Positions 6,992 through 52,590 of a DNA stretch of 64,000 nucleotides are shown piece by piece (position 1 is the first letter of the stretch; each line of letters starts with the position of its first letter). The notes under the pieces are model-generated. The model searched no databases. It was not told where the DNA came from and worked only from the letters and a program-made list of their open reading frames with translations. The stretch is from Collybia mongolica. Lineage: Eukaryota > Basidiomycota > Agaricomycetes > Agaricales > Clitocybaceae. Where the stretch lies: contig JAAXNY010000010.1 in NCBI GenBank assembly GCA_013420905.1, positions 1,550,001 through 1,614,000 of the forward strand. The letters are read 5' to 3'. The position numbers and the translations under genes are program-made.

Positions 6992-6993
6992 TA

Positions 6994-8601: not shown

Positions 8602-8603
8602 TA

Positions 8604-12970: not shown

Positions 12971-12974
12971 ACAT

Positions 12975-14279: not shown

Positions 14280-15060
14280 TACACATTGATTAGAATATGC
14301 CAAAAGCCAAGAAGCAAGCTCAGGCAATGCTAGAGAGGGTTGCTCATGCAAGATTAAAGGCTCATGAGTATCATGAGCATCACCTGGTAGTGGAAGCCCT
14401 CCAACAGGCTGAAAAGTATAATGCAAAGCTAGAGACAGAGCTGGCTGGATAATAGAGAAACTGAGGCATCTCACTACTGCTCTTGCAACAGCCAATAGGA
14501 AACTGGCTGAGACCTTTCAGAAGCTCCTTGGTGTTGAAAATAAGGCTGATAAGTGGTATAAAGCTCTATGTACTGAGAGTCTACTGAGGTTAAGAAAGCC
14601 TCACTTCAGCAGCAGTTGAATACACAGTATAAACCAACTGCCCAGAGCACACAGGAAAAGGCAGTCTCTACTGTAGAGTCTCTTATGAAACTTGAGAAAG
14701 AAAATATCAAGTTGCAGTGGGAACTGCCTTCTTTATTGGATTTATTGGAATTTTCAGCATCTGAACAACAACAATATCAGGACAAAAACACTATGGTGCA
14801 ACAAGGATTCAAGAAATGTCATTCAAAACTTCAGAAACTCAGAAAACAAGTTGGATCAAACAAGAAATCTTTGAAAGAGAAATCAACTTTCAGCCTACTG
14901 CACAAAGGTGTATATACTGAACAGGCTCAAAACTTGATCCAACTTCTTGTTAAAGCTGGCTGCTCAAAGAACAGTGTTGGTGAAGTCATTCATGCTGTTT
15001 AAGCTTACAAATATCAAAACTCTACCAAGCAACACACAAGCTGATAGTATGAGAAAAGCA
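14280..15060 (+). pseudogene. Fossil of an unknown coiled-coil protein, probably transposon-linked
   Basis: The best-preserved part is 14616-15002 (128 codons): Glu/Lys/Gln-rich helical stretches (ENIKLQWELPSLLDLLEF, HSKLQKLRKQVG), then HKGVYTEQAQNLIQLLVKAGCSKNSVGEVIHAV. The last block resembles a motif (KGVYTEE...LVRLLV.AGC....V) that I associate with multicopy basidiomycete proteins of mobile elements. Upstream, 14300-14460 reads AKKQAQAMLERVAHARLKAHEYHEHH in another frame. Stops and frame breaks make it a relic. No function is claimed. Confidence 0.45.
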
Positions 15061-15894
15061 CTTGAGAAGGCTGTAGACAAGAAAGGAGGCTGAAGACATG
15101 GCTATCAATGAAACAGATCCAGTAGAAGAAGGGGAGAGTGCTTGTAAAGATTTCTTTTTTGCAGAAAATTGAGGGTTAGGTGAGATATATTTACATGTAT
15201 TCACAGCATATATACATTACATATATTTTGGGAAAAGAATAAAGGTTATAGTGGCTCAGGAGTGGGGGAAACAGGTGAGGAAACAGAGTGTATCAAGATT
15301 TGTGACGTTTTTGGTCACAGGCCGTGACGTCACGCTTTCAAACAGTAACAGGGATTGCCCACCCCCACTACCATGTCATTGTGTGACAGCCTCTAATGCT
15401 CACCCCTATAATTCCTGTCTCTGCTTGTACATCTATTAAATAACAGTGAATTGCATCTGTATTTATTACAGTGGTATATAAAAGTTCAAATAAAAAGGTA
15501 AAATTACCACCATTATGGTGGTTATTCCAGACTCCAAGCTGTCAGGTAGGCATTTTCACTACACTATGCCAAACTCCCATTATTAGCCTACATTTTTATT
15601 TACAGGGAATAAATACCAGACTGATACCTATGTCGATAATTATTTTCATTTTAAGTATTTACAAACCCTTATCCGTTTCCTCCCAAAACTCTGATGACTC
15701 GAGCGACACGAGCATGCCGATTCTAGGAGCCTGCAGCAAAACCTGAATAAAATTAGAGACTTGGCTAATTTTCGGTTAGAGTCAGACCTTCCTTCCTTGA
15801 GCCTCGGTTAACTTTGATCGAAATTTCTACAAGATATTGACCTCAAAAAGTCCCTAGTACCTAACAACTACATTGTCCAGTCCAAAGGATGTAA

Positions 15895-18800
15895 TCAAAT
15901 AGCGAATCCGATTATTTTACTCATTGGTTGCAAGCTGATTGCGGGTTGTCCCTCAGAAGCGGCAGTTGCAGTGGGAACACCTAGCTCGTCATCGTCGTCG
16001 TCGCTCTCTGATGCTCGTCGAGGCCGTGGAAACATGCTGAGTCGATTGGCATCCGATTTAGAAATCTTGTACGAATGATGCGCTTTCAGAGATTCTGCAC
16101 TTTCCAAAAGCACTGACACCAATTCTGGGTTCAATTCCAGATTGAAAAGATCAATGATATATCGTCTAACGGGTAGACGATACCGTCGGGAAGAGATGAC
16201 GTGGAGGGCTCTGTAGAACATTTTTGGTGATGTGAAGATTGCACGATACTCGGGTCGAGATTTCATTCTGAGGGTTGTCAATGGGTAACCTGGCTATGAA
16301 CATGAGGTACACATACCTGGCCAGCGATCGCGAAGCGGCGTTTGCGATGACGGCATTTGATAAATTCTGGATAGCCGTTAAAACTTCGATTTCAGTATCG
16401 GTCGTTGGGGGTATCAATCTTGATTTGTTGTTACCGGGGGGGTTTTGTGCCCATGTAGGTATCTGGTGTTCCGTGTGTGTTGCAGACTGCTGTTGAAATA
16501 ATAAACAAAACATACCGATGTGAAGGCCTCAAAATCCACAGGTATACACAACCCAGTAGGCATGCCGAGTGGTGAAAGTGTAGCTTCCCAATGGTAATCA
16601 TCAAGGATTTCGGCACCCTGAGAAGTCGAAGATATGAGGCCCAAGACAAAGAAGCAGGTTCTAAGAGAAAACTGAGTCACTCCAAAGGGAGCCGAATGAA
16701 GTTCAAGTACCCTCGTATTGACGGAATAGGCGACTTCTCTGCGATTTCCAGGACAGCTGGAATTATCTCTTCCTCTTCTAAAAAGGGAAGGCCTCCCTCC
16801 GTCGCGCCAACGTTGCCCTAACGATTATGAATGAGCGTGGGGCATAAGGGCTTATGGGCCACGCACCACAGCCCACAGGATACTTTTGAGCTTCATGATC
16901 AGCTCGGAGTCCTCACTTTCGTGACTGTGTTGTCGGATAAATTGCGAGAACTCGGCAAAATGACCTTTTTCTTGAAGGATCTGGCGGCCAGGTTCGGTTT
17001 TGGCCATCTCCCCGTAAAAATGAGGAGGAACAGTCCCATCAAATGCCCTAGGTTACATAATTAATGATTATGATGATTGGTAGGGGATATTTCGACTGAC
17101 AACATTTCTTCATCCTCATCGCTGATACTGTGGAAGACTTTGGCAAGAAAAACCTCGACTTGCACGACATAATAGATATTGCGTTCCTGGAACCCAATGG
17201 TATCAATGCAGCTGATCTCCTAACGATCGAAACAAAACGTGCGTTAAACCACATATCCATTTCCCGGTCAATATATCCTGCATCGTAGAGATATCGAAAT
17301 CCCATTGGCGTTGACATGAACCTGTTACCCGACGACGTAAATCAGCTATACACATTGGGACAGTCGTCAACCAACTTGAGAAGGAGAGGATGGCCTATCT
17401 CGCCAAGGTGGTCCATAGTTGGTTGCATGTCGACGACCAGCTGTAAGATATCTTTAGACTCACAGGCCTCTTCGAGGAAATGGACCGCGAGCTCGCAGAC
17501 TTCGGGTGAGGGATCGTATAATTGGGTCAGGAGAAGGCGAAGAGTCCAGGCATTCGCACTAGCTAAGCCACGTATCAATTCTCCGAGGTGTTGGGTAGCA
17601 TATAGCCGGATGTGCTACCAAGCAAGACTTAGCAAAGTTACTTCCAGCGGCCCCAAAGAGCACACCTTGTAGCTGGAAGTCAAAGCTTTTGACAAGACAA
17701 TCCGCGGATGACCATCGCTGTGTTGCGTTGAGATGAGAGAAGTTTTAAGATATAGCACACGAACATGTTATAGTCTAGATTTTCAATGATGCCTTTTATT
17801 AAATCTTCTCGACTCCGTAGTTCACTCAGGTGATAAAACGCGGTAAAAACTTTGAATTTTTCCAGTAATCTATGATGAAGAAGTCAGCCGGAGTATATTC
17901 AAAGGCGGCTGGCTGTACATTCACTCACTCTATGCCTTCCTTATACTTGCTGAGAGTCCCAAGCATCTCCAGATAACCATATGTCAATGTTTCTGCTACC
18001 CGCTTCTTCGAAAATACTGGATCCGAGTCAGGTACGCCATTAAACTACCAGGCGCATTGATTCTGAGTCATACATATTTCGGGGGGTGGGCAAACGTACG
18101 GGGTCAAGTTGTGCAAAACTCTTGACGATTTGTGTAAGAAATTGATCTTCCGTTGCGAGGTATCTGACACCATCAGAGCTTGCCATCATGGTTGTCAACA
18201 GGGAGCACCCTAGTCGCACCCAGCGAGAATTTATCTATTGTATACTTAGCGTCTCATAAACGGCGAGCATATATGGTAGAAGATACCTTATTCCTGGGCA
18301 TGTCCGAAAACCTATGGCTGAAAGGATGGAAAAATGACATAAGTCGGCGGATGAACCGTGAAACTTTGATCGCCTCCTCCATTCGTTTGGGATTTAGTAG
18401 AGGTCCTTCAATGAGTTCTTGTAATGTATCGAAATTCCACTTTGTATACTCTTTCGTGAGCATAACCTGGGTTACGTGAGGGATGAGGGTTGAACGGATA
18501 AAATCACTCGTACTTGTGTTTCAAGTAGACATGCTTGGAAGGTCCTGTCGTCCATCTGCATACTCATTTTCAGTTTCACTTGCTCGACATGCCTTTGACC
18601 ACGCCGAACTGCGTCTTCCACAGAGTTGGCCCTATGTACGATATTAGTAAACTGATGGACCATATGAGTTGTACTCCCACCTAGGACGGTTGTTCTTAAC
18701 GGTACTGGGCTGTAGCCTCGCACGGTTGCGATTGAAACTATCAATCGCTGACATGGCTGATGTACCGACTATCCTGTGCTCTCCTTCACTATAATCGATC

Positions 18801-23771: not shown

Positions 23772-24183
23772 CAAAACCTTGAAGGTCCCAGGTCTTCCTT
23801 TTGTGACTGTGATGACAAGCCCGCATCCACCCCCTCCATTCCTCAATGCCTCTGCTGTTGACACAATGGACACAAATTCAGTGACTGTAAGGAAGACACG
23901 ACACCATCAGGCCTTCTGACACACTCGTGCTATCAAAACAACAAACTCACTCTGTGATCCAACTCTAATCCCTTGTGCATTCTCTTCCAACTCAACTCCT
24001 CTTGATGGCCATGCAAGCAGAACCATCCTGAACAGCACCTCTGCTCATGGTGCGGCTCTGCTAGTCACAGAGCCTGTGCACAACTCTGTCAGTGAGCCAT
24101 TGGCTCATATTTTCTTGGAATCACCTCTTGCTTTGACCCATTCCTACAGAGACTGGTGATCTCTCCCTACTTCCAATGATACC

Positions 24184-25648
24184 TTGCCTCCACACATTTA
24201 TTTTGACAATCTCCAGCCTGAACCGCCCTCACCTTATGACCTCAATCTGGACTACATGAACATCCACACTCCTTATTCAGCTCCCCAATTCGAACTCTTC
24301 TTGGAATGCACTGGACTTCTCAAATGCTATCCTGAACTCCCTTTCAAAATTGCCAATGGGTTTCCCCTTGGAAACCTTGCACCTGTCACAAACACACATG
24401 CACCCCCCAACCTCCCAGGCACCACCATCCACTCAGATACCATCCAAGCTTACATAGCCAACAAACTTCATCTTGGGCGGTTCTCTGGTCCACTCACTCA
24501 TCAGGAACTAGAAGAAAGAATCAGGCCCTTCCACTCCTCACCTCTTCAGGTTGCCACAAAGGAGGGTGTGCCAGGCAAACTTGACAAATATCATGTTTGT
24601 CACCACCTCTCATATAAGGGCAAACTATGCTCCTCTATCAATGACAAAATTGATATGGATGAATATCCTACTTGCTGGGGTAAAGCAACCGACATTGCAG
24701 AAATTGTATGTTGTCATCCCCAACTCTCTTCTCTCCCTCTCCCCCACATCTCTCTCATATCATCCCCTCTTATATACTATCATGTAGCACTCGCTATGAT
24801 ATGTACTCTGATATCAATCTATCAATCTATTACCAAATCTTCATATCATCTACCTCTTCTTCATTTCTCAGAATGGAAGTTATTTGCAGAATGGGGCCCC
24901 ATACCCTCAATTTGTTTGAAGGACACCGCTTAGACTATGGATGCTTGTGCATTCCATTCATTTTTCCAAGATGATCTCTCCCCACACCATTGTGTTGTCA
25001 ATCACATAATCTGACAAAGATTTCTCCCAGGTTATGGCAGCTCCTCCTGGTGCGCAATCAGCCACTCTTGACGTCGAAGGTGCATATTGCACAGTGCCCA
25101 TCAAACCCAATCACAAGTGCTTCCTCATTGTTTGATTTGAAGATGTCTTCTACATTGACCATAATGTCCCCTTTGGACTCACCTCTGCTTTGGGCCTCCA
25201 AGGCAAAATTGCCAATGCAACCATTGACATCTGGAAGCACTATGAAGTCACCCCTGCAGTCAAATGGGTCGATGACTTCAATATCTTTCATTTTCCCAAG
25301 CCTCATGGTTTCTACCTCGGTATCAGTAATGGTGTCAAATATCATTACAGATATGATCTCACATCTATCAAAGATGTTATAGCTCTGTTGGGAATCCCTT
25401 GGCACAAGGAGAAAGGCCAAGAATTCTCTGACATGTTTACCTATGTTGGTTTCTTTTGGGACCTCCCCAACAAGACTGTATCCCTCCCCAATGCTAAACA
25501 AGACAAATGTCTTCATTGCCTCTCGCGATTCATCTCAGTGTATGAGAGCTCTCAAGTCCCCAAGCACAAGGCACAGAAAATCATTGGTGTTCTCTCTCAC
25601 ATCATGTTTGTACACAGACATGGTTGTTCCTATATGACCAACCTTTAT
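24184..25648 (+). pseudogene. Reverse transcriptase of the DIRS-like element
   Basis: First part (24184-24700) reads PFKIANGFPLGNLAPV..., VATKEGVPGKLDKYHVCHHLSY, INDKIDMDEYPTCWG, the conserved N-terminal RT region. A non-homologous ~250 bp stretch (about 24720-25020) interrupts it. The second part (25028-25648) has GAQSATLDVEGAYCTVPIKP (catalytic Asp), FYIDHNVPFGLTSALG and KWVDDFNIF (catalytic pair as VDD), then KTVSLPNAKQDK. One TGA sits between CFLIV and FEDVFYIDH. Not functional. Confidence 0.8.
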
Positions 25649-25699
25649 TGATGGCTCACCAGCTTCCTCAGCAACTACATCCCATGATATCTCAGTTCC

Positions 25700-26225
25700 T
25701 TGGCCCTATCAGACCTTCATTGGTGGTATAATCTTCTCTCTGGGACCCACCCACCCCGTTCCCTTGCACCTTGTGAGCCAACACGCAACTACAACATTTG
25801 GGTTGATGCATCTACCGAATGGGGGATTGGCCTGCTCTGGGGCAAATGCTGGGCAGCATGGCGCTTAAAAAAAGGGTGGAGAGGCCCAGGCAGAGATATT
25901 GGCTGGCTTGAGGGCATAGCCGTAGAACTTGCTCTTCTTGCAACAAAAGGAATGGGTGTACAAAATGTGGATGTTCTCATCCGCAGTGACAACAAAGGGG
26001 TTATTGGTGCCTTTGTGAAGGGCTGGTCCTCTAATTTTATGATGAATCTCTGCATCCGTTGCTCAGATGAACTCTATGCCACAACCAGTATTTCTCCAAC
26101 GCTTGTCTATGTAAACACAGCTGTTAACCTCGCGGACCCCATATCCCATGGCTTATTCCCATCCCCCTCATCTCAACTTGCCATAACCATCCCCATACAC
26201 CTCTCACTCACTCCATACACCACAC
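25700..26225 (+). pseudogene. RNase H-like domain of the DIRS-like element
   Basis: Reads LHWWYNLLSG, NIWVDASTEWGIGLLWG (first Asp), WLEGIAVELALLA (Glu), VLIRSDNKGVIGAFVKG (Asp) and NLADPISHG, the RNase H order found after RT in DIRS-like elements. The frame is open here but isolated by stops upstream (TGA at 25649-25651 and 25684-25686). Confidence 0.75.
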
Positions 26226-26556
26226 ATGTCTCCCTCTGATCTCACCACATTCCTGCAAGGTGTCAATGTTGAAGTGCAAGCAGCTGCCTTCTATGCTAAC
26301 ACACCCTCATTAAACATTCGTCGTGCCACTTCTCTATCCATTCACAGTTGTCTATGTATTCCCTGCAAACCTCGCAAAGATACTCATATCACACCCTCCT
26401 CTAATCAACCCCCAGTGCTTGCCAGCAAGCGCCTCTTACTCTGGACTACACCTCACTCCAACACATTTCAGACCTTGCTTGAAGCTAGTCTTCCAGATGC
26501 CACCATCCTCAAACTCTTCAAAGTCATGTTGCACTCTCTTGATGAGAGCACACGTA

Positions 26557-28173
26557 CAGTAGGTCAAAAAACTGTCCCAATGTTTGGTCATTTTATAATG
26601 ATTTACTTATAACAGAGTACTGGGAATTAATATCATTCTGAGAAAAATATATATGATACTACACCATATTAGCTTTGAAATGAGCCCTTACTTTCCTTAT
26701 TTGAATAAAAACTCATTTCATAACAAATTGAACAAAATAATTACTCATTGGGACAGTTTTTTGACCTATGCTTAATTTTGGCAAGATCTTTACTGCAGCA
26801 AGCTTTAACATCATGTGATGTATTGTGGGAACAATAAACAAAGTCATGTGACCATGTTGATATAAATTCAACATGTTTCCATCATTACAATCATTCTTTC
26901 CTTCCCCCATCATCTCATGAGACCTACATCTTCTACCCAATGCCTTTCTGTGATCTCCCTTCTTCAAGAAGGTTATACCTTGCATCAGATCCAGTCCAAA
27001 ACCACTCTGGGAAAGTCTACCATTGGGAGAATCAAGAAGGAACTGGATATGGACAAGGAAAACCACAGGGGGGGACGTCCTTCTAAGCTCTCTCCTGGTG
27101 ACAAATGGTCAATTATTTGACAAATCACCACTGGAAGGCTTGATAATGCTGTAGAGGCCACCCATTTCATCAACCAAACTCTTCCCAACCCTGTCACACC
27201 CCAAACAGTCAGGAATGCACTCAAAAAGAATGACTTTTGTAGTGTTGTCAAGAGAAAACGTCCTCTTCTCAAAAAGGCTTATCAACTGCAACATCTTCAA
27301 TGGGCAAGATACCATGAAAACTGGACAGTGGAGGATTGGAAAAGGATCTTATGGTCAGATGAGGTCAAAATCAACAGGATTGGGTCAGATGGAAGGACTT
27401 ATACTTGGAAGAAGAAGGGAGAACCACTTTCTGACAGAACCACCACTCCTACTGTCAAACATGGAGGAGGAAATAATCTTATGGTGTGGGGTTGTATGGG
27501 GTGGAATGGAGTAGGAGTGCTTACATAGGTCCAGGGGATTATGAATGCAGACCAATACTGCCAGATTTTGGATGGGGGAGTAGTGGAAAGCTTTGAAAAG
27601 CTGGAGATGCCAGAGGGAGAGAGGATGTTTCAGCAGGACAATGACTCCAAACATGCATCCAACAAGGCAACCAAGTGGTTTGAAGACAACAATATTGATG
27701 TTATGGTCTGGCCAGCACAATCCCCTGACATCAACCCCATTGAACATCTCTGGGTAGTGTTGAAGAAGGCACTCAAGAAATACCCAACAGCCCCCAAAGG
27801 AGTACATGAGTTGTGGGATAGGGTGGTAGTGGAATGGAATGGAATTCCACCAGAAACATGCCAGACACTTATAGAAAGCATGTCTAGAAGGGTTCAAGCA
27901 GTTATTAAGGCAAAAGGTGGTCATACCAAGTATTAATTGTGTAAATAGAGACTTTGGAGTGTAGGTCAAAAAACTGTCCCAATGAGTAATTATTTTGTTC
28001 AATTTGTTATGAAATGAGTTTTTATTCAAATAAGGAAAGTAGGGGCTCATTTCAAAGCTAATATAGTGTAGTATCATATATATATTTCTCAGAATGATAT
28101 TAATCTCCAGTACTCTGTTATAAGTAAATCATTATAAAATGACCAAACATTGGGACAGTTTTTTGACCTACTG
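26557..28173 (+). mobile_element. Tc1/mariner element 2 (1617 bp) nested in the tyrosine recombinase
   Basis: Flanked by TA at 26555-26556 and 28174-28175. TIRs about 210 bp begin CAGTAGGTCAAAAAACTGTC. As in element 1, an inverted copy of the outer motif closes each arm (near 26745-26768 and 27963-27985). Related to element 1 but clearly diverged, and in the opposite orientation. Confidence 0.93.
26917..27936 (+). pseudogene. Tc1-family transposase, two in-frame stops
   Basis: The same 339-codon layout as element 1: HTH (GKSTIGRIKKEL), GGRPSKLS, WSDEVKINRIGSDG, QQDNDSKHAS, SPDINPIEHLW, so DD34E is kept. A TGA after KWSII replaces the arginine present in element 1, and a TAG follows GVGVLT. 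These two changes inactivate it. The rest of the frame is uninterrupted, suggesting recent loss. Confidence 0.9.
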
Positions 28174-29161
28174 TAGCAATTATGGAGCAGGACTCCTTTG
28201 CTTCACCCAATTCTGTGATGCTGATAACATCCCAAAGACTGATCAGATGCCAGCATCCGAACCACTTCTCTCCTTTGCTGCCTCTGCTGCCAGTCTCACC
28301 TCAGAGAAGACTCTATCCAACTGGTTGGCTGGTCTCCACTATTGGCATGTTGTCAATGGTGCTCCCTGGCATAGTGCTGACATGCTTCATCATATACGGC
28401 ATGGATTTGCCAAACTTGTTCCACCCTCTGCAAAATGTGCAAAGCGTCCCCCCATCACCATTGAGGCCATGGTCACCTTAAAAGCCAGACTAGATCTCTC
28501 TAATGCCTTTGATGCGGCAGTCTGGGCAACCACATGCGTCACATTCTGGTCTTGCTGCAGACTTGGCAAGCTTCTTATTCCCAGCCTTAATCTCTTTGAC
28601 CCCACTAAGCATGTCTCTTGCATCGCCATCACCATCACCAACCATGTACTTCCCAATGGTACTGCCTACACAACATTTCACATACCATGGACCAAGACCA
28701 CCACTCAAGAAGGTGCCAATATCTCTATCACATCATGCAAACATGCATGCTGTTCCCTGGCAGCCTTGTGACATCATCTATCTGCCAACACCCTTATTCA
28801 TAACACTGCCCCTCTGTTCTCCTTCGAGACGGCTGATGGCACTTGGGTGCCAATGACCAAGCCCTGGTTCATGTCACATTGCAATGATGTTTGGGTGGCG
28901 GCTGGGTTCCCAGACATGCCAGGCCATGCCTTTCACATTGGCGGGGCCACTGAACTGCTCCTGCAGGGCATCAACCTTGACATTGTTGTAACTCAAGGGC
29001 ACTGGAAGTCCTGCACTTTCCTTGAATATTTGCAGAGAATTGAAGTCATCCTTCCCCTGTTCATTTCAAACTCTTTGAACTCTTCTCGTATGCTTAACCT
29101 TGAAGCCTCTATGTCTCCCTTTGCTCACCAACATTGTCTTACTCTCCCCTGCTCCATGTAG

Positions 29162-30101
29162 TTGTTGCTACTTCATAGCCTTGTTTACTCTCATAGTATT
29201 ATCATGACAGTCTGGAAGAAATGTATCAAATGCTTCTGTTATGTCTTTTAGCCAATTCTTTAATTCACTTGCCCAGCTCTGGTTTGGTGTGCCTGGCTCC
29301 AAAGGAGACTTGACCATTGTGAGCTGTGCTCTTTTCAGGTGCAGTCTTGTTTCCCCTTCAGACCCTATTTCCATCTGCAGGACCAACAGGGCACACTCCG
29401 AAGATTCTGATTATACATCTCGTTCTCATCTTTCCATTTTGAAAGAGATGCATTGCATCTCAAGATGTAGCCTGTCACATGATAAATCACAGGACTTTTA
29501 GAATCTTCCCCCAAACCATGGAAAATCTTACTTGCAATGTCACAGCAAATTAGATTTTACATTGATCTCACATGTCTTTTAACTAGCGCATCCATACAAA
29601 GCTGCTGTCAGATCAAATTATTACCTGCAATATCTATCTTATCTCTTGCCATCTACAACGATGTGCAATTAAAATATGAACCTCCCCATGGCCTTGCCGT
29701 GGCTAGAGTCATGTTTTGAGTGTGACAGAACATCTATACATTATATTTCCCTCATTTTGGCTTGTGTCTGTTTTTCTGCACCACTTCCACACACCTTGAC
29801 CATCTTGGGAACCACTTCACTGACAAGCTCTCAATGCCAAGGAACAACCCATCAGGAAAGAATGCACATGGAGAAAAAATATGTCAGTATCATCTGAAGA
29901 ATATCCATTGAGCCATGTTAATTTCCCCTCTAGATCCAGCAGACCCAATCCTGAAGGACACTTTACATCAATATGCAAAGGAGAGACTTACTGTCAAGGA
30001 ACAACTTGAGTGCCTATGAGTTGAGTTTAAGCTTGTTATTGGGTAAGTCATAAGATGTAAGATTCTTTTTTTTGTGCTTTGTTGAATGAAGCTGGTCATT
30101 T
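29162..30101. other. Non-coding stretch downstream of the DIRS-like element
   Basis: No gene or clear repeat is recognised. The right end of the DIRS-like element should lie here. Confidence 0.4.
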
Positions 30102-30602
30102 TTGAACAGGAAATCAAAGTTAATGGAGCTAAACAACCAGTTTGATGTGCCTTCTGTAAGAAAGCTGCCATCTAAAGATGTTGCAACATGTGCTATTCTC
30201 AAGAAAATTGCTGCTGATCTGGCACAGAGGAATGGTGTAGGTGCCATTGGTACTTTTTTGAGCAACAATGGAATGCCAATCCCAGATTTGTCATGCCAGT
30301 ATATGCTCCTTGGGTTTCAACATAAGTATTTTCTTGCAGAGACTTCATTCACCATGTTCTTTCAGAGCATGCACCTGAAGGCCTTGCAGCACAATTCCCT
30401 GGTGCATGTGTAATACCATGCTCAAAACTGTCAGCCATTGGACTGTTTCATCAGGATTACTCTGATGGTCATGATAAACTTAATGCACAGGCTCTCCAGA
30501 TGGGTGATGTGTCTTTGCCAATTTACAGGATGAAAGATCAATGGTCAAGCTTAATTAAATACCTTGTCACTGTTCCTGATAATTGCGTAACAATTGGACA
30601 CA
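30102..30602 (+). pseudogene. Relic of an rve-type integrase-core protein
   Basis: Readings VRKLPSKDVATCAILKKIAADLAQRNGVGAIGTFLSNNGMPIP and, in other frames, HHVLSEHAPEGLAAQFPGA and DGHDKLNAQALQMGDVSLPIYRMKDQWSSLIKYLVTVPDN. This order matches multicopy basidiomycete proteins with an integrase catalytic core, where the Asp of DGH starts the DDE triad. It is cut at VTIGHI by repeat R (30606). Broken frame, no function. Confidence 0.6.
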
Positions 30603-30605
30603 TTA

Positions 30606-30750
30606 CAAGTCCTTATGTTGACATAAGTAACTTGTTCATCATCCTGGGTTTGCGGGGAAAATTCAGCATACCCAACAAGATTCAGTGCTGTTTTTCCCAC
30701 AGTTAGTAATTTTGAAGTGTTCCAAGATTTCATTAGAACATGATCAGTAA
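30606..30750. repeat. Repeat R, copy 3 end segment (left of repeat M copy 1)
   Basis: 145 bp matching the R terminus at 10935-11080, starting after TTA (30603-30605). It stops at GATCAGTAA, where repeat M begins. The expected continuation (AGTAAACATTTTG...) is found in opposite orientation ending at 35663. Confidence 0.75.
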
Positions 30751-32341
30751 TTACAAGTTCTTTAGTTTACTAAAGATGAGTTCTTTATCAACCCAGTTTT
30801 TGGGCAAAAAATTGATTGATTGATTGATTGATTGATTCATATTTCAACACCGTGGGAAAATATTACCATAATGGGTTTTTTCTTCTCTTATAGCTTTTTA
30901 CAGCATTTCTCCACAAATACAAAGTATTGTGACATAATTGGGATGCTTACATAATGCTTTTGATGGTGCCATCAAAATTATGCATATCTAATGTTTCAAA
31001 GCATCATGTTTCAAAATTTATTTTGTGTTTTTCTCCATAACCAGTAAAGCTATTAAATTTGTTTTTATATGTTTGGAATGTACAAACATGGCTCTACAAT
31101 TTCCTTGTTGAGCATATTTTTCCCACGGTCCATTTTGAGCGAAATATCAGAAATGTCCAGATTCAGCTAGTTTTGAAGGTCTTTTTTTTTTTTTTTTGGT
31201 CATATAATAATATTAAGCGCATGTGGGTTTGACCCAGCTACATGTGGGCATAGACACCTATTACCACTAAGTAATCTGTAATGAGCCATCAGGGTGGAGC
31301 TGTACACTAAGTTGCTCTCCAGGTCATATTACTGGTCTAGACTGAGGATACCTGCAGTCCAACAGTATTGTACTGTACCATGTCTGAACCTCCCAATGCC
31401 TTAAAGGTTTGCCTTTGCTTGTCGGGGCATGGTCCCCTCCCTTCACATTGGTACCCCGTTCCACTCCCCTCCTGGTATTCTCAGGTCGCCCTGGAAACCC
31501 ATTACTCCCCCCTGGTGTCGAAGATAAATGTCCAAACTAAATGAACGACCCATACCTCAAATCTGCTCCCCCTCTCCTGAATCCCCCCTATTACTTGCCC
31601 CCCTGTTCCACACCACTCTCCCAAAGTGATGACTCCCCTCAAAATGAGGCTGCCAAATCCCACCATTGGTTGATAAACTGGCATTCTCCCCAAGAGGTGT
31701 GCTCTGTGCAGGGACAGTAGCTGATCCTTTTGTATTTGGGTGTAGTGGTTAAGCGAGTATGAATAAATTGTCGAAAATGTTGGTGGTGACACTCCCTAAG
31801 GATCTGCGCAAAGCAGAGTACTAGAGTTGTGGTGTCCTTGTGTGGCCTGGTAGTTGATGAGGTGGATGTGAATGGATTAGTAAAGCCCCCAGTACAGGCA
31901 AGATGAGATGACCCTGCAGATAGTCAGGATCAGCTCTGATAAGTTAGAAATTTGGATATGGTATAAAAGGATAGTGGCCCAGGCCAAAAGAGTGGTCTGG
32001 TGAAAGGCAATCTTGATTAGGGATGAGGTGTTAGGTAGTTTAGGGATGACCTAGTGCAGGAGGGATGAATTCCCATGGTTGGATGGTGGTGGTAAAAGAT
32101 CAAGAAGCGTTGAATGGTGTTTTCTCCATAGCCAGGCAAGCTATGGCATTGGGTTTTGTGCACAGGCATTTCTTGTTTACTTGGTAACATTTTCCCATGG
32201 TCACATGACCTCTATAAACTATCACCTACATTGTTTCTAGTCATTTTTACAACTTCCTGAATGTGGAATGGACTTATTTCTCCTAAGAAAAGAAATAAAG
32301 AATGAGTACATGCCACACAGTGTGTTGGCCCACTCCACCCA
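30751..32341. repeat. Repeat M, copy 1 (contains S copy 4)
   Basis: Matches 35664-36548 in inverted orientation. Starts TTACAAGTTC after AGTAA, carries a (TTGA)n microsatellite at 30813-30838, and ends ...CACTCCACCCA next to another AGTAA. About 240 bp present in copy 2 is absent here, at the place where S copy 4 lies. No coding sequence. Confidence 0.7.
31182..32110 (-). mobile_element. Poly(A)-tailed dispersed repeat S, copy 4, inside repeat M
   Basis: Same structure as copy 3: T run at the left, 5' end ...AAGATCAAGAAGCGT at the right. The flanks TTGAAGGT and TTGAATGGT may be an imperfect target duplication. Confidence 0.8.
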
Positions 32342-34448
32342 AGTAAAGTAGGGACTCAGACTCTCAGATGGACTGTGTGAAAAGATTAAGAAGCTTGAAA
32401 ATGTAGATCTATATTTGTATATTCCAAATACACAACCAACTCAGTAGCTTCTCTGGGGACTTTACACTGAGCTACATGAGCCACACAGACCACACAGACA
32501 AATGCAGATGTCTGCAGACTGAGCTCAGACCCTGTTTGGCAGGGAGTCCTGCTTAATTAGCAGTCTATACCTGAGCCAAGTCAAAGCTAAGTCCATAAAT
32601 CCATACTGTTAGTTGGATGCTCAGACCCAGCTTAGAACAACTCCTCATGGAGTCTATGCAGACTGTCCAAATTGCTTGCTTCATTATACATAGTTACCAT
32701 TACTTATTTAATGCATAAAAATGCAATATTTTGGAGAGTCAAATACAAGGCCTCAAGTTACCTGTCATGTGCATAAAGCATGCAGATTAACCATTTGGCA
32801 ATATGAGCTTATCATTCCAAGCTGCTTGTTGTTATAATGACCCCCTGCTGCCCACTCTTGGCCATTACTGGCAATGGCTGAGCATTGTTGATGGGTGCCA
32901 CATCACCCATCAGCCTTTTTGTCAACCACCACCACTATATCCCCAGTTGCACCTTCCATCACCTCCCTGCTTTATGATTGTACACAACACTGCCAAATAC
33001 AATGCCAGGTTCTACTGCTATGGATACCACTACCCTCTCTTATACCTACCTCTCTCAGTGATAATGACAACTGCCAAATCACAAGCAATAAGAGCTGCAG
33101 CAAGAACCACAGAGGGACTTGCCACATTACCAGTGGCTGCCTGCCCACATCTGCTAGTGAGCAGCTAGCATGGTGGACATGGGTGGTGCAGTGATATATT
33201 CCCTATGGTAGAACCATCACCTGGTGGGTGGGTGTGCACCCCTAGATGTGCTGTCTAGGCCAAGTAGTGCCAACCTCTCCTGTGCCTAAACCAGATGTGT
33301 ATAAGGTGAGTGCATATGTGCCCCACATCTAGTTGCTCAGATATACATTGCTCTATTGTATATACACCTATATGCTGCTGTATACCTTGAGACTATCTTA
33401 GTGTAATTCTATATACCTTGTGATATGTTCCTTATCCCTTTCACAGATATTAGTTTACTTCTGACTAACACCCCACCCCTCTAATATTTGCACAGCTCTA
33501 TATTAGAATTTGAAAAAACCCAAGAAGAGAGAAGTTCCAGAAGTGTCCAGATGAAGCACCAGAATGACCACAACAGTTGTATTGGCAATAATCTGGCTAA
33601 GTCTAGTACAGGTGGCTCAGTGATTTGGCATTGAGTATGTGAGACAAAAAGTCATGTGAATCTAAATCTAACACTCTAGTGGGCTGATATAGACTTCTGG
33701 TATCCCCACAGTATTTATCCAATGTACCTATATATAGATGGGGTTGCCTAATTACAGATAGCACCTTTGCAATGAATTAGACCCAGATTTCTTGTAATAA
33801 AGCCCATTTGTCCTCTGTTGCCCCCTTTCCTGTGTGACTGAACCCTGCTGCTCATATCAATTCCCCCTTCTAACACTCAGTGTAATACAGCCCTTTACAG
33901 TATGGTAGGGTATGGGTAGTATTTTACTGATGCACAACCCCAGACCATAGACAACTCCCATCCTCTAGAGTACCACTACATACAGAAGACCACCTACTGC
34001 AGCAGCATGCAAACACAACCCACCCCTTACACATCCTACACCTACAAGCACTAATGCAAAACCAAATAAGGGGGCAGTGGTAGCTGAGAACAGCAGGGGA
34101 GTGGCAGGCTTGGGTGGGGGACAAGCTCTTGTGTAAGCTTGATAAGGAAGTAATATCAATTCAAATGCCTATAATAGAAACAAGTTCCCACAGTATTGAA
34201 ATGTATATCAACTATTCAACACTTAATAACTTTTTTTTAGTCTTGCATCCTGGGTTAATCAAGAACTTACCAGATATGCTAAAAATAGATATATGATCAT
34301 CAAACACAAACCTCAAACAAATGTATATATGCCTGTTGAGTGTTTTTTTGTTGTAATATCACATACTATATTTAACCATACTCAGATAGCTAGCCATTGT
34401 CAAGATATTGAGCATGCTATATTCCAGGAACATTCACATTGACTTGTT
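32342..34448. other. Non-coding stretch (part of an apparently inverted segment), with a Q repeat copy
   Basis: No gene is recognised. It holds a copy of repeat Q at about 33710-33900; the rest is unique by eye. The open frame at 32803-33168 has no motif. Confidence 0.5.
33710..33900. repeat. Dispersed repeat Q, intact copy (empty site for the Ulp1-DDE transposon)
   Basis: Shares an AATGTACCTATATA...GATGG start, GCACCTTTGCAAT, a CCCTTTCCTGTGTG block and a CAGCCCTTTACAG end with the two halves at about 47895-48026 and 52371-52439. It shows what the target looked like before insertion of the transposon. Confidence 0.7.
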
Positions 34449-35663
34449 TGGCTATGCTTTTGGCCAAGTAATATATGAATGTGATATTAAAATAGATATA
34501 ACAAGAGATTATAATCAAATTTGGAAAGGTACAAACAAATATAAATATACATTTCATATGATACCCCCTCCATATGTCTAGGAGTAATAGCAATTTCCAT
34601 TGGGTCCATTAGCCTTGTATTTGCTGAGATATACATCATCTATATTGTGGGAACTTCATTAAGATTGTTTGTTTGACCAGACGTTCACAAGGAAATATAC
34701 AGATGACATTTATTTGTAATATGTAGTAAAAAAGTTGTTGTTAATAATGAGATTTGGAAGGGTACAAACAACTACAAATACATATAAACATACACATCAT
34801 GTATTCCTTTACAATGTCTAGTAGTAGCATGTACATCAGCTTTGTATTTGCTGATATATGCATCATCTATATTGTGGGAAATTTCTTTAGTATTATTGTT
34901 TGTTTGGGCAGATGTGTGGTGAAGTGATATACAGACAGTATTCATTTGTAATATGTAGCAAGAAATTTGTTGTTGATAATGTTTAGAATAATATAAGCAA
35001 ATATAAACACATACAAACATATACATGAGGTACTACTTCACTATATCTAACACTAGCAATTTAAATTACATCCATAGGCCTTGTTGTTGTTGAGATATGC
35101 AATGATTTATATTGCAGGAATTTTGATGGTATTGTTTGTTTGGCTAGCTGTGTGGCAAAGTCATACACAAACTTGATATTCATTTGTAACATGCTTGTAG
35201 TGAGAGAGCTACTTTTGATCATGATGTTTGAAGGTGAACAAACAAGTACAAATACACATAAATATACCAGTTGGGGAACCCTTCACCATATCTAGTAGTA
35301 ACAATTTAAATTGCATCCATAGGTCTTGCCATCATGGAGATATGCAATGTTTTGTAGGTGGGAAAAGTTTAACCCAAAGTGGAACAAGTCTCTTGTAATC
35401 ATGCTTATGTTTGTCAACTATGCTATTAACTCTAACAGTGTAGCTGACAAACATAAGCATGATCATGCAGCAGACAGTTATTAATTAATTCTTGAGATAT
35501 TTCAACCAATTATTGTAACTTGAATTTATATTATTAAATGCAGCCCATGTTAGCAGTTGCCTTTTTTGCTCAAAATCCGCATGTCAGCTAATTTTGATTC
35601 CCACAGTTAGAAAAATATTTCCACAACTACAAAGTCTTACTGATGTGCTTCAAAATGTTTACT
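34449..35663. repeat. Repeat R, copy 3 main part (tandem subunits and hairpin)
   Basis: Same order and orientation as 1561-2770: ~220 bp subunits (34449-35390), hairpin (about 35403-35465), conserved segment, ending ...CAAAATGTTTACT at the border with repeat M copy 2. Confidence 0.75.
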
Positions 35664-36548
35664 TGAGTGGAGTGGGCCAACACACTGTGTGGCAGGTACT
35701 CGTTCTTTATTTCTTTTCTTAGGAGAAATAAGTCCATTCCACATTCAGCAAGTTGTAAAAAGACTAGAAACAATGTAGATGATAGTTTATAGAGGTCATG
35801 TGACCATGGGAAAATGTTACCAAGTAAACAAGCAATGCCTGTGCACAAAACCCAATGCCATATGTAGCTTGCCTGGTTATGGAGAAAATACAAAAACCAT
35901 CAGAACTAACTTTTACCAGGATCATGTACACTAAATAAGTGTTCAGATTGTTGTCATGTATTTGGTATACTTATGTGGTGGAATAGATCATGTGACATGT
36001 GTCAATAAATAGAGAAATCAATCCTCTTTGTATTTCAGGTAAATATAGTAGTAGTTGTTGATTACTCCAATGTTTAGTGTAATTTCCCACAGGGGTCATG
36101 TTTGATCAGGGTCATTGTTGTTATAAGATGTTTGTTCACCCCTGACATAACACACAGACCTTCAAAACTAGCTGAATCTGGACATTTCTGATATTTCGCT
36201 CAAAATGGACCGTGGGAAAAATATGCTCAACAAGGAAATTGTAGAGCCATGTTTGTACATTCCAAACATATAAAAACAAATTTAATAGCTTTACTGGTTA
36301 TGGAGAAAAACACAAAATAAATTTTGAAACTTGATGCTTTGAAATATTGGATATGCATAATTTTGATGGCATCATCAAGAGCATTACGTAAGCATCCCAA
36401 TTATGTCACAATACTTTGTATTTGTGGAGAAATGCTGTAAAAAGCTATAAGAGAAGAAAAAACCCATTATGGTAATATTTTCCTGTGGTGTTGAAATATG
36501 AATGAATGAATGAATGAATCAACTTTTTGCCTAAAAACTGGGTTGATA
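35664..36548. repeat. Repeat M, copy 2 (inverted relative to copy 1)
   Basis: Starts TGAGTGGAGTGGG and ends AAAAACTGGGTTGATA; the outermost ~40 bp of copy 1 is missing. Includes a (GAAT)n run at 36498-36520 and about 240 bp not in copy 1. Confidence 0.7.
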
Positions 36549-46840: not shown

Positions 46841-47880
46841 ATTCCCCATTTGTCAATACAACCAACCACATTAGAGAAAAGTGTTCTTCTGAGTTGAGAT
46901 CCTCTAAAGGAAGTAAAATCTATTTAAGGACTTGATCTTTGGATAGCATTGGTACCCAGTCTGAAACTGAGACCAATTATTGTTGTTGCCTTGTCAAAGG
47001 TCTGAGTTGAGGAGACCTAGTATTGTGAGACCTGCCTTTCCATAGAAATCTATCTAGAGTTTGAAGCTCTGGGATAGTGTCATCACTTGGTTTGGAACCC
47101 AAGGCCAATTATTGCCTGAGTCTGAGAGATTGAGTCAAGGACTTAATGATGCAAGACCCTTTTCAAAGAATTCATTACAAGTCTTTTGACCTTGTTATAC
47201 CTGCCTCTACAAGTATGCATCTTGTTGTGACACAAATAAAAACTCTTACCCTTAAAACTGGTCTGATAAAACCCTTGTGAAATCTGTGAAGTTTTCTAGC
47301 TTCCTCCCTCAAACTTAAACCCATGATCCTGTCAGATTGTGTGTGTGTGTGTGTGTGTGTGTTGTGTGTGTGTTGTGTGTGTGTATAGATTGTGGTCATT
47401 AGATTATGTTTGGTACACACATACATTCCCCCAGGTTTGCCCTTTCAATGCTAACCCAAGATCAGCCAGAATGAGATCTAGCAGAGGCATCCAAAGCTAT
47501 ATTATAGAAGGCAAGTAACAGGCTATCTACTTACCTACAGTAGCAGAGGAATCCAAAGAGAATACCCTGAGGACCCTCTGCCAGGGGTCTCTGTCCTATA
47601 TACCTATTCCAGACAATAGCTATGAAGTCCCATTGTTGCCATATGATTCAGAGTCATAAAGTACATTATCTACAAGCAAGCCATTGTACTCTGATGGCAA
47701 TGCAATGAGTGGGGCATGCAAGTGCCAATAGCAGGCATTGTGGCAGTGAGGTGTATGTGTGATGAGAGGTAATGCCAATAGCAGAGGGTGTTGCAACAGT
47801 GGGATGTCCAATGAGCAATGAGCACATGCCAATATCAGAAGTTGTGATAGCACATGTAGAATTGGGTATTCCCCTTATAA
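46841..47880. other. Non-coding stretch with a GT microsatellite
   Basis: No gene is recognised. A (GT)n tract with two TTG interruptions lies at 47338-47384. Confidence 0.6.
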
Positions 47881-48026
47881 TATCTCTATAATATTTCCCC
47901 AATGTACCTATATAGATGGGCCATCCAATTGTGGATGGCACCTTTGCAATAATCTAGGCCTGGATCTCCTTCTTGTGACAAAGCCTGCTTAGTCCCTTGG
48001 TGCCCCCTTCCCTGTGTGGCTGAGTA

Positions 48027-51000
48027 CTGTCCTGATACAACCTACTCTTCAGTCACATGTCACAACAGTCTGTGAAGTGAAGAGATACAGCCCATGTCAT
48101 TGGTCACAATGAGTTTTGAAGACCGTGACAAAAATCACTTGAAAATTTCCTAAAAGGGAATATTCACAGCTAAAAAATTTCTAAATCTACTCCTCATTGC
48201 TGCCGTCATTTGTGACCCAAAAACTTGACAAATAGAGGACATTTGCACGCTTCTTGTGCTTACCACGTCCTTCTACGGCTTGGCAACCCTGAGTTGCATC
48301 AATGATCTTGCCATTAACAGATTCCCTTGAAGCACACTCTGCATCAGCAGTTGATACAAGGCCCCCTTCCTCCCCCGCTATGTACAGCTTGTTGTTGTCA
48401 TCACAATCCATAGAGTTGGTGCATTGTGTGTGTGCAGAAATGACGTCAGCCATGGGAACTTCACTGTCATCACCATGGATATCAATAGCGCTCTTGTCAA
48501 GATCCTCCAACTCTTCTTGTTGGGAAGTAAGTGTTGGTAGAAAATGGTGTGGTATGCCACCTTGTGAACACAGCTGCGTGATCTCAGCCCAAAAAGCTGG
48601 GTCCACCATAACGAGCTTGTGGAGTGCTTTCAAAACTTCATGGCTTGTCAAGCTGGCATAAGACAGGTTAAACTCTCCTGCCTGGCACATCTCCCAAGCC
48701 TGACAAGATCGTAAGCAATGAAGCAATGGGCAACATTGGAACTCACCTTCTTAATAATGTCAGGCTTATTGAGAGCCTGATACGCTGTCCAGATCCAGTG
48801 TACAGTCCAATCCTGCAGTATCTTGATTCCGGTATCAAGTTTTATGTCTTGCACTGGACATCTGACTTTGAGTTGGCTAAGAACTTTGGGTACAACATCT
48901 TCATGAGCTGAATTTTTCAGTGAATGTTTGAAAATTCGCTGTAAGCCAACATCACAGGGCTGAAATAAACCAGTCATGCCAGCAGGAATAAAGATAACAA
49001 TGATTAGTGGATGCTTTGAAGCCATCCACTCCAGGAATTCCTTCGAGTGATGGACAGACCAGCAGTCAATGAACCACAAAGCCATTTGGTCCGGGTCAAG
49101 CCCAAGCTCCTCTCAAATGTTATCAAAGTAAGGGGCCAGCGTGATGTTCACAAAGTTCTGCATTGTTGTGATAGTGGACCAGTACGTGGTTGTCTTCGAG
49201 AGCTCAAATAGAAATCCGGCCTTCTCTAACTCATATCAGTTCTGTGCAGTAGGGCTAGGGAGTGACTTGTTGTTCTGGCCTTTGTAGATGGCTTGGATTG
49301 GTAAGAGCTTGCCATAATTCATGACACTCGGGAGGATCGTGATGGCGTGTTTCTCCTCAGCGCCAACTGTGGCAACCTGATTCACACCTGACAAAGCATA
49401 TGTCATGTGACAGCCTTGTGCCAGCACAACCTGGGTCTGATTGCTGTTGACAAGAAGCGCTGATGGTATCTGCTCATCTTTTACCACCCATGCTATACGC
49501 AAGAATGCCTTTTGTAGGACCTCATCTGCATTTGCTGGGATCTTCCAACCTGCTTGTGTGGATTGCCACATGTTCCAGCCCAGCGCTCTATGGAGAAACT
49601 TCAAGGCAAACTTCTCCAAGCACCAGAAGAGTGTGCCATCAGCTGATGGCTCCTTGAAGATCTGAGGGGCAGAGTGTTGGAGATGAGCAATCATCAATCC
49701 TCAAACTGTGTTCAAGGTGAGTGTAATGGATGCCTCGCGAAGGGTGCTGAGGTATTTCAGCACTTCTGCCATTGTGTTGGGGTATTTTATCTTTCCTAAA
49801 GCATGAGTTGGCAGTAACATCAAGGTGACACAACCATACCAGTACTCCAACCCTCGTTGTAAGTCCTCCTGGCCTGTTGCCTTTTGTGACCCGCTGAAGA
49901 GTTTTTTCACTCCAGACTGGATGATCACCAGATTGATCAATCCAATTGCCAAGAGTTTGAGTTGCAAGTTTGGCAAAGAGGATCGGGTCCTTCAATTTGA
50001 GTTCATTGACAATCTTGGTAGGTCTCATTTTTGGATGGCGTTTTGATACTCAGTCAATTATAGACCAGATAACAGGTGACATCCAGTTCGTCAAGACCAC
50101 TTCCTTATACTCCTTCACTCATGGCCGTCCAACGTCTGTTTGTTCTTGGCAGGTTTCTTCTTTGAAAGCACGATTTGGCCGCGTTGCTTCAGCAAGGTTG
50201 AATGATGAAGCAGGTTTGAATCGAGCACCATAGGCTTCAAAATATTGGATCAACAACCATCGAAGAAAATATGGATTGGGAATAACCTTGGTATGGATAA
50301 TCTTCCCATTTGAGTCTTGCCTTCCTGATTGTATTTCACTAGCCGTCTTCCTACTCCTGCATTCGCACTGGCGCTTGGAAGCTGCTTCTGTCTTCTGTTG
50401 CTTGGCCTGCGCAACATGTGCATCATTGCCCACTCTAGATCTCTCCATGTTCTCTTTCCATTCCAACGTCATCCATGCCCTATCAGCTGATGCAACCTCA
50501 GCTGTAATGGGCTTGAAGAACCTATCTAATCGCCCTGCTTTCACAATTGGATGACGTACAGCAGATGTGTTGTGTTTATGTTTCTTGGCATTATCAATGC
50601 TGAGGGGCCCAGTTGAGGATGCAGCTACATCCTCAGATGGTCCAGTCTGAAGGTGAGATGGTGTCAGGAGGCTGTCAAGTGATGCGGGCATGGTAGCTGG
50701 TACATCGGATGATGCAGATGAAATATCAGAAGGCTCGGTAACTCTTGGGGAGTGTTCTGCAGGCGCAGCCTCTGATGAGTTATCAATTTCTAATGGTGTT
50801 TGCTTCCACAGAGGAATTGTAACCACTGGGGGAAAAAAGCCTCTGTTGCCTAGAACAATGTTAAAGGTATTGAAATGGCCATCAGGTGGGTCCCAATCGG
50901 CTGGGTGCTACCCAACAAAACCAATGATTTAGCTTAATAGCTTTACAGCACTTATTGACATTGTAACTCACCAGCTTTAGGTCACGCTGAGCAACCTGCA

Positions 51001-52370
51001 TGAACATAGAGATCCTCTCTTTGGCGGCATCCTCAGCTCAAAGGAGCGGTATTTGTTCTGGCAGGATAAAGTGTCTGGCTGCATTGGTAGCAAAGATAAG
51101 GCAGGAATGGCTGTCTTGTTGGCGTGTTGTTGGTAAGTCCTCCTCAAAGAACACATGCGGTATGTGGGTATTAATCCACCATGCTACTGCAGCTTTAACC
51201 TCAGTATTATCACGACCCAACAAGTCCCCATATCGGATTGCTGACCAGGTAGCATCAACCACAACTGCAATCCAGTGATTGTCATTGACATTTACAATCC
51301 CAATGATTGTTGTGCGTATACCATTTGCAAGCTCTTCCCCCATGTTCCATAAATGGCAAGTTCCTGCTCCTGCACTATATGGAGTCGTATCCCTGGTACG
51401 ATATATTTGCACCACCTTTTGGAAGAAGCTGAGATTCATGACTTCACAGAGAGACTTTGGATCCATTCCAGAGCGGGCTAGCTTCCACCGGAGAAGGTCA
51501 AGTTGGTGGTTACCATGAGTAGTTGCCAACCAGTTCTAAGATAGCACGCTAATTTTATAGTAGGCTCAGCTTCAGTAAACCCATGCATGTCACCAGCCCA
51601 TGGAATGGCTAGGAACATAGTTTGGGCTTCTTTGCAAAGACGGTGCCTATCCAGAGAGCAGTAGGATGCCATGCCACTCTTCTCCTTTGTCAACCATAGC
51701 TCTGCCCTGCTCCATGGCCCTATAATGTACATGCATAACAAGGAAGTTTCTTGCCAGTAGGTCAAGATCCAAAGTGGGAAGTAGAGTTGTCAAGCTGGAT
51801 GGGATGTGGGTAGATGGGGATAACAAATGAACTTTGCTTGCATTTCAACAGCCTTTGCTTGGATGTTGTGGAGAAGGTTGTGAGATGGGATTGGCCATGT
51901 CTTCAGGACCTCTACGTTGTCAGTGAATGTAGGCAATTGTCCAGAGATGAAATGAGCTATGTTCACTGTTGTTACTGCCATTTTCAGTGATGAAGGTAAT
52001 GTGAATGTGAGGATCTGAGATATAGACCAGTCAGGATCAGGGAGGAGGGTTTGACGGACTTCAGTTGGGATAATGTGGCTATCAAGCGTGCAAGTCATGG
52101 TAACTTGTTTTTATCTGGAACACGTAGCAATTTTAACAATTTTTAACATTGAAATCCTGATGCGCTCATAAGACTTAAGTGCATGTCAAGCCAACATTGC
52201 GGCGTGCGCACCAGGAAGACTTGCTCATGTGACTGCATATGATGTTCAGTGTGATTAGGTTTGAAGAGATTTGAGGTCTGTCACATGGGTTTCCCAATCT
52301 TGAAGAGTCAACTAGTCATCCAAATCTGTCACGTGTCACATTGCATGAAGAGTAGGTCGTATCAGTACAG
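48027..52370 (-). mobile_element. DNA transposon with Ulp1-DDE fusion, 4344 bp
   Basis: TA at 48025-48026 and 52371-52372. The terminal inverted repeats are about 25 bp with two mismatches, starting CTGT(C/A)CTGATAC(A/G)ACC. Sub-terminal CACATGT/CACGTG words lie next to both TIRs. The sequence outside the two TAs joins to an uninterrupted Q repeat similar to 33710-33900. Inside is one long minus-strand coding region for an Ulp1-like protease followed by a DDE transposase. It is inactivated by stops, mostly TGA, and at least two frameshifts. Confidence 0.85.
48187..52098 (-). pseudogene. Ulp1-like SUMO protease fused to DDE_1-type transposase (degraded)
   Basis: Starts at the ATG at 52098. 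N-terminal region QLYFPLWILTYWQETS...FLAIPWAGDMHGFTEAEP, a frameshift near 51530, then THGNHQLDLLRWKLARSG. Ulp1/C48 peptidase at 51300-51038: NDNHWIAVVVD (His), IRYGDLLG (Asp), TTRQQDSHSCLIF (Gln, Cys). A GT-AG intron of about 90 nt (near 50987-50908) leads in frame into a Ser-rich linker (50826-50119). Then come KMRPTKIVNELKLKDPILFAKL (HTH-like) and the DDE_1 core: LLVNSNQTQVV, LLPIQAIYKGQ, MALWFIDCWSVHHSKEFLEWM, FIPAGMTGLFQPCDVG, and an acidic tail ending at 48187. Two TGA stops between linker and HTH lie in the same frame, so the ancestor was probably a single protein. Confidence 0.78.
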
Positions 52371-52590
52371 TACTGCCATTCATATCACTCTCCTCCTTGG
52401 ACACTTGGTGCAATGCAGCCCCTTACAGGCACCTTTGCAATAGGCTTGGATTGGGTTCTCTACCTGTAATCAAGCCTCTATTGCTCTATGCTTGTCCCTT
52501 CCCTGCATGGTTGGTTTTCCTGTATATAATGCTTCCTGCCTGAGCCCCTTGGCAACATGGCCCCTTACAACCTGTGACTGACAGATTGAT

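Follow-up and report, generated by a model that had tools for sequence, protein, structure and literature searches.

We analyzed a 64,000-nt window of the Collybia mongolica genome (assembly GCA_013420905.1; contig JAAXNY010000010.1, here C10, positions 1550001-1614000) and found that its minus strand encodes, inside a 4344-bp DNA transposon, an Ulp1-type peptidase followed by a DDE_1-type transposase. Genome-wide searches covered 46 Mb in 26 contigs (named C1, C5, C6, C8, C9, C10, C13 etc.). Judged from the sequence, the two enzymes most likely belong to one gene, which would encode a protein of ~1200 residues with an N-terminal Ulp1-type peptidase, a flexible linker with a long basic helix, a putative DNA-binding region, a DDD transposase (DD37D), and a C-terminal tail. 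We are highly confident that the element itself is a CpG-decayed copy of an autonomous, TA-targeting DDE_1 (pogo-like) cut-and-paste transposon.

A Peptidase and a Transposase in One Gene Model

The coding region is interrupted by three introns (Table 1). A preliminary description of the locus, made from the sequence before homologues were consulted, had traced an Ulp1 domain with readable His, Asp, Gln, and Cys through the first intron (50971-50908) and a linker, past two TGA stops in the same frame, into a DDE_1-type transposase, and every part of that path reads as it claimed. The Ulp1 domain ends at intron 1, and homology to six Ulp1 proteins (P0041-P0046) breaks off there; in this comparison P0047 ends before the site, and P0051 and P0052 are too divergent to be informative. 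Introns 2 and 3 were placed from homologues rather than from RNA, and they explain the apparent frame changes farther along the gene. A further intron near the end of exon 2 is possible. Exon 1 is interrupted by premature TGA stops and shows a gap of 4 bases when aligned with the copy on C6. We also considered that part of exon 1 might be read in a second frame, and rejected this because homologues show one frame running straight through; the protein queries that found these relatives included ~30 exon-1 residues in the wrong frame.

The preliminary description had proposed that the ancestor was a single protein, and four annotated proteins with the order Ulp1-linker-DDE, together with the conserved intron position and collinearity, support that proposal. 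These fused proteins come from Hypsizygus marmoreus (P0053), Gymnopilus dilepis (P0054), Tricholomella constricta (P0055), and Pholiota molesta (P0056), so that homologues are not always separate genes, and two of the four models exceed the Pfam cut-off for both domains. The fifth and last match of the same search, P0057 from Tricholomella, is a transposase without Ulp1. Partial relatives were named from Crepidotus, Pluteus, Russula, Tricholoma, and Mycena; a taxonomy look-up places Hypsizygus in Agaricales and Russula in Russulales, and the other names are as given by the sequence sources. P0056 (1192 aa) aligns with the window in five collinear blocks (residues 3-189, 184-376, 455-680, 677-1026, and 1025-1185), whose borders agree with introns 2 and 3. 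The blocks of the C6 and C13 loci are likewise collinear with P0056, C13 having no match in the linker (~368-583). All three genome loci with long P0056 matches across the transposase (window, C6, and C13) have Ulp1 upstream on the same strand.

The two enzymes also appear to have diverged together. Across 28 pairs drawn from eight elements or element-like pairs, Ulp1 identities of 29-76% are positively correlated with DDE identities of 46-85% (Pearson 0.89, Spearman 0.65), the pairs being non-independent and two of the eight elements being Ulp1 and DDE proteins paired by a presumed common contig. For those, source sequences of equal size (P0041/P0005, 3792; P0044/P0002, 5138) suggest, without proving, the same contig, and they account for 2 of 12 Ulp1 matches.

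An alternative is that Ulp1 and transposase are two neighboring genes of one element that gene prediction has merged. In favor of this, the fusion rests on gene models, intron position, and collinearity, and many database open reading frames (ORFs) contain either Ulp1 or transposase but not both, as expected if genes are called without introns but also if the genes are separate. On the other side, frame and homology continue over the phase-0 intron 1 into a hairpin beside the Ulp1 fold, and the fused models recur in four species. We therefore regard a prediction artifact as improbable.

Within the linker, the LDRFFKP island falls where an aliphatic residue and an aromatic pair, or nearly a pair, recur in the fused relatives. 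We take this motif (L..WF/FF, ahead of the long helix) to resemble a PCNA-interaction box that lacks the canonical Gln; its position is conserved, its exact sequence is not. PCNA is a binding partner of the pogo transposase.

Table 1. Coordinates of the transposon, its gene, and its terminal features within the window
Feature	Position	Strand	Evidence
Whole transposon	48027..52370	- (coding strand)	4344 bp; terminal inverted repeats, second full copy on C6, empty site
TA target-site duplication, left	48025..48026	.	Empty paralogous sites
Terminal inverted repeat, gene 3' end	48027..48051	+	
Sub-terminal double TGTGAC box, 3' end	48052..48064	-	
Exon 4: C-terminal region and stop	48187..48699	-	P0056 1025-1185
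Intron 3, 47 nt, inferred	48700..48746	-	P0001 reads through the same place
Exon 3: putative second DNA-binding region and DDE_1 transposase core	48747..49790	-	P0056 677-1026
Intron 2, 49 nt, inferred	49791..49839	-	Homologues; alignment block border
Exon 2: linker, basic helix, putative first DNA-binding region	49840..50907	-	P0056 455-680
Linker island LDRFFKP	50509..50532	-	LTKWFKP at the same place in P0056
Intron 1, 64 nt, GT-AG, phase 0	50908..50971	-	Six Ulp1 proteins leave homology here
Exon 1: N-terminal region and Ulp1/C48 peptidase (catalytic part ~50975-51547)	50972..52098	-	P0056 residues 3-376, two blocks
Sub-terminal box, 5' end (nt 31-43 from end)	52328..52340	-	TGTGAC and second copy, 1 base off
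Terminal inverted repeat, gene 5' end	52346..52370	-	
TA target-site duplication, right	52371..52372	.	Empty paralogous sites

Ends, Target Site, and Sub-Terminal Boxes

The preliminary description had drawn the element as a bounded DNA transposon with a TA at either end and 25-bp terminal inverted repeats (TIRs) carrying two mismatches, and these limits hold: the repeats match at 23 of 25 positions, a full copy exists on C6, and empty sites were recovered. With the TA and two flanking bases included, the inverted repeat reaches 29 nt at 93% identity, the longest among 14 listed in 6.5 kb. The second full copy (C6:3159770-3164123) preserves the whole 4.35 kb at 94% identity with the same ends, and paired ends also occur at C8 (5 kb apart), at a second place on C10 (12 kb), and at C5 (21 kb); because the whole unit and its paired ends recur, the boundaries are not a product of chance. 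The copies at C5, C8, and the second C10 place share the ends of the window copy and have been rearranged or interrupted by insertions. The TIR core CTGTNCTGATAC has 32 matches in the genome, compared to 13 for a reversed control, and forms pairs at C5, C6, C8, and C10. At C13:2530228-2535383, a divergent element with the same gene order is bounded by a TIR of its own, TACTGTTCCATTTT... (26 nt, 88%), its Ulp1 part being 30% and its DDE part 42% identical to those of the window. Five family copies and this one divergent element are thus flanked by TIRs.

The window element sits in a dispersed repeat (47500-48024 and 52373-52430) with dozens of copies in the genome, which provides paralogues of the insertion site. 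All five of the closest uninserted paralogues (L082-L086) have a single TA at the junction, and two remoter ones (L077 and L078) show no clean TA there. For the C13 element, the empty site in L079 is identical over 60 of 60 bases to the flanks joined by one TA, and L080 and L081 give the same reading around the TA. The single TA in the empty sites of both elements indicates that TA was duplicated at insertion.

Sub-terminal words had also been noted earlier. They are real, but their description as "CACGTG-like" was too loose: the actual word is TGTGAC. This word or its complement lies within the first 60 nt at 11 of 12 ends of six elements (ends that are not all independent), versus 50 of 1066 background 60-nt blocks, and the only end without it is the 5' end of the rearranged C8 copy. 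At the 5' ends of C6, C10, C5, and C13, two exact copies stand seven bases apart starting at nt 31, and the second copy at the window's 5' end carries a one-base change. In the window family, the 3' ends have the complement beginning at nt 26 and at nt 33, and the C13 3' end has it once, at nt 33. This conservation makes the TGTGAC boxes the leading candidates for binding sites. A combined end-and-box pattern has 7 genome matches versus 0 with a reversed control pattern; four are known copies, and three belong to a further TIR type (C1:5746654, C9:1563232, and C9:1806975) with the double box at the same or nearly the same distance. No Ulp1 or DDE match was found near these three at E 0.001, and they are possibly non-autonomous relatives.

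Catalytic Residues and Predicted Folds

In Pfam searches, Peptidase_C48 and DDE_1 both exceed the cut-off in P0054 and P0056, only DDE_1 does so in P0055, and neither in P0053; in the window's own frames both fall below it. A search with NCBIfam gave no match. An Ulp1 profile compared to the Protein Data Bank (PDB) matched yeast Ulp1 (1euv) at E 2.9e-4 and, best of all, 7fiu, a ULP_PROTEASE-domain protein, at E 1.2e-6, while a solved-structure search with the transposase profile returned nothing relevant. His, Asp, Gln, and Cys occur in order in all 13 relatives that cover the site (12 of 12 by motif, P0046 by eye), P0048-P0050 being left out of this count since they stop before it, and the window gene keeps all four residues. 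In the transposase, the first catalytic Asp is Asn in the window and Asp in C6. The last two catalytic Asp residues are 37 apart in 31 of 32 measurable rows and 72 apart in P0039.

The AlphaFold model of P0056 has a mean predicted local distance difference test (pLDDT) score of 68, with most ten-residue blocks of both catalytic cores at 74-97. In this predicted structure, residues ~142-400 match Ulp1/SENP/NEDP1 structures and adopt an Ulp1/SENP fold, while residues ~755-1036 match the Mos1, Metnase, and Sleeping Beauty transposases. The stretch between the cores is predicted to contain disordered sequence, a long basic helix (470-527), and further helical parts, possibly DNA-binding. A model of the transposase alone was poor (pLDDT 56.5) and was not used.

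Captured gene fragments have been reported in plant transposons (PMC2528002), and the Ulp1 part could likewise be a host gene fragment taken up passively and without function. Given that the catalytic tetrad is kept in every covering relative, and that the domain holds the same position in distant elements, we consider such a passenger very improbable.

Placement in the Pogo-Like Group

Its target site, DDE_1 domain, and fold place the element in the IS630-Tc1-mariner/pogo group. All 9 transposase relatives have a PF03184 (DDE_1) match at E<=1 (the best being 6.1e-8), and a genome search brought DDE_1 over the cut-off at the window locus, C6, and C13, though not in a single window frame. There are 61 DDE_1 matches in the genome, six of which, strong, open-frame, and pogo-like, were compared with the Ulp1-DDE family. 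These pogo-like elements score 4.3e-38 against DDE_1 (one row), far stronger than the Ulp1-DDE family, and the profile-profile link between the two is weak (E 0.0013, probability 18%). At E<=1, Pfam detected no CENP-B_N, HTH_psq, HTH_Tnp_Tc5, ABP1, or Brk DNA-binding motif among 9 relatives, only some of which reach that region; the structure model has helices in this part.

Members of the pogo superfamily (Fot/Fot-like, Tigger, pogoR, Lemi, Passer, and Mover) share a DDE_1 catalytic domain, TA duplication, short TIRs, and size in range. The TA duplication seen at the empty sites of the window and C13 elements is of this type, and DD37D falls inside the pogo DDxD range of 29-59 (PMC7386202). 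Compared by their descriptions in the same source, however, none of the six families fits neatly in spacing, protein size, and undetected DNA-binding motif. Almost all Fot elements have DD35D and Mover has DD36D, while Lemi and pogoR allow 37; pogo proteins span 300-977 aa, as against ~1200 aa with an N-terminal Ulp1 here; and Mover is described without a detectable DNA-binding motif (PMC7386202). That the element forms a new family of pogo is a proposal.

The preliminary description had pointed instead to KDZ elements, which have a known Ulp1 association, and a CxC4 match that is very weak (E 0.034) and under the cut-off leans the same way. KDZ membership is ruled out by the TA duplication, KDZ elements duplicating 7-8 bp (PMC12730594), and no KDZ or CxC model matched at E<=0.1 in the 8 relatives scanned. 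We give this assignment almost no weight, and the nearest group is the DDE_1/pogo-like one with its TA target.

CpG Decay and Nested Insertions

The window and C6 copies differ by 248 mismatches, 240 of which are transitions; the 387 CpG-suspect columns account for 217 of the mismatches, leaving 31 for the remaining 3961 columns (0.78%). Since nearly all are CpG transitions, they point to methylated-cytosine decay after a fairly recent spread. Premature stops in the window gene include seven TGA codons, each matched by Arg in at least one relative, as CpG decay would give; the genome search also counted one TAG, at the 4-base gap relative to C6. From their sequences we conclude that the window and C6 copies are both dead, and the decay pattern suggests that the host methylates the element.

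The CpG observed/expected ratio is 0.34 in the element versus 0.50 in the whole window. Seven 4-kb blocks (window 1-16000 and 24001-36000) have ratios of 0.03-0.21; among the other nine, seven lie at 0.66-0.93, with 0.48 at 20001 and 0.32 at the element. The window is a mosaic in which strongly CpG-decayed, probably methylated blocks alternate with gene-like stretches.

The C13 linker contains a nested 645-base repeat (L041:3548-4192; element bases 2320-2964) with more than 20 near-full copies elsewhere in the genome at 92-95%. A decayed locus on C1 has a weak Ulp1 match in the expected place (E 0.003, single-locus search), and near it lies a 229-base inverted repeat at 95% (L042:107-335 and 1490-1718). 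In the C8 copy, a nested open frame of 344 aa (L023:5137-6171) looks by eye like a Tc1/mariner transposase.

Possible Role of the Peptidase

With its full catalytic set, a fitting predicted fold, fusion to a DNA-binding enzyme, and persistence through deep divergence, the peptidase very likely has a role in the transposition cycle. In the mechanism that we favor, the putative DNA-binding part would hold the sub-terminal TGTGAC boxes, the DDD core would cut next to the CTGT...ACAG ends and insert at TA, as the family suggests, and the tethered peptidase would strip proteins at the ends, whether silencing factors of the host or the transposase, of SUMO or a related modifier. We infer such removal of SUMO, and an anti-silencing function is favored because the host appears to methylate the element and because other fungal transposons carry TET dioxygenases that may counter silencing (PMC12730594). 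A role in protecting or activating the transposase is also conceivable. Taken by itself, the anti-silencing or transposase-protecting role is tentative; the joint account, a decayed autonomous pogo-like transposon whose peptidase serves one of these ends, we consider reasonably probable.

The peptidase might instead act on ubiquitin or NEDD8, or trim the fusion protein itself to release the transposase. NEDP1 and OtDUB rank beside SENP/Ulp1 in the Foldseek list, NEDP1 recurs in the second structure comparison, the best PDB match is annotated by a ULP_PROTEASE domain, and the relatives that align in the putative DNA-binding part keep a Gly-Gly in it (PGG before TR). Yet the C13 copy does not keep the Gly-Gly spacing, no processing site is known for the fusion protein, and the sequence match to yeast Ulp1 is significant, which makes this alternative rather unlikely. 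Somewhat less likely still is a role in repair after excision, through the SUMO or ubiquitin marks of repair factors: Bao et al. proposed such help for Ginger1 (PMC2836005), but no repair link is seen here beyond the weak PCNA-box-like motif of the linker.

The element may represent a new Agaricomycetes pogo-like family whose transposase has its own N-terminal SUMO eraser; the DNA binding of the transposase would carry the peptidase to the element, where it would open chromatin or keep the transposase unmodified. We advance this tentatively. Ulp1-type peptidases recur in unrelated transposons, with a role only guessed at in the literature examined. With peptidase and transposase in one protein, defined termini and target site, fused models that retain their catalytic residues in named mushrooms, and a decay pattern that points to methylation by the host, the benefit of the peptidase becomes testable by a one-residue mutant.

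Comparison with Other Transposons

Ulp1 domains in transposons are already known; in the literature searched, we found no report of one in a pogo-like element. Iyer et al. 2014 reportedly treated KDZ elements, including a link to Ulp1, and Hoen et al. 2006 is said to concern MULEs. Our literature search, with Repbase and most subscription papers outside its scope, yielded no description of an Ulp1-bearing pogo or mariner element; the main text of two pogo surveys (PMC7325037 and PMC7386202) contains no word beginning with SUMO, and the partial text of PMC12730594 contains no Ulp1, protease, SUMO, or Mariner. If our account is correct, the Ulp1 association extends to the TA-targeting DDE_1 group.

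The closest parallel in architecture is Ginger1, which likewise has a DDE transposase and Ulp1 in one protein but differs in that its transposase is Gypsy-integrase-like and its Ulp1 is C-terminal (PMC2836005). Plant MULE and CACTA elements also carry an Ulp1 domain, in other transposase superfamilies and hosts, and rice proteins combining Tnp2 with ULP1 have been reported (PMC2528002). The oomycete CryptonF and CryptonS elements likewise encode a C48 peptidase, but with a tyrosine recombinase (PMC3212892), and Ulp1 is also known from Polintons (PMC10175614). In presumed function, the nearest counterparts are fungal transposons with TET/JBP dioxygenases (KDZ, Plavaka, and others), which likewise carry an enzyme that may erase a silencing mark, although there the eraser acts on a DNA mark and accompanies other transposases (PMC12730594). 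Those TET dioxygenases would act against DNA methylation, and we tentatively propose the Ulp1 domain of the Collybia mongolica element as their protein-mark counterpart.

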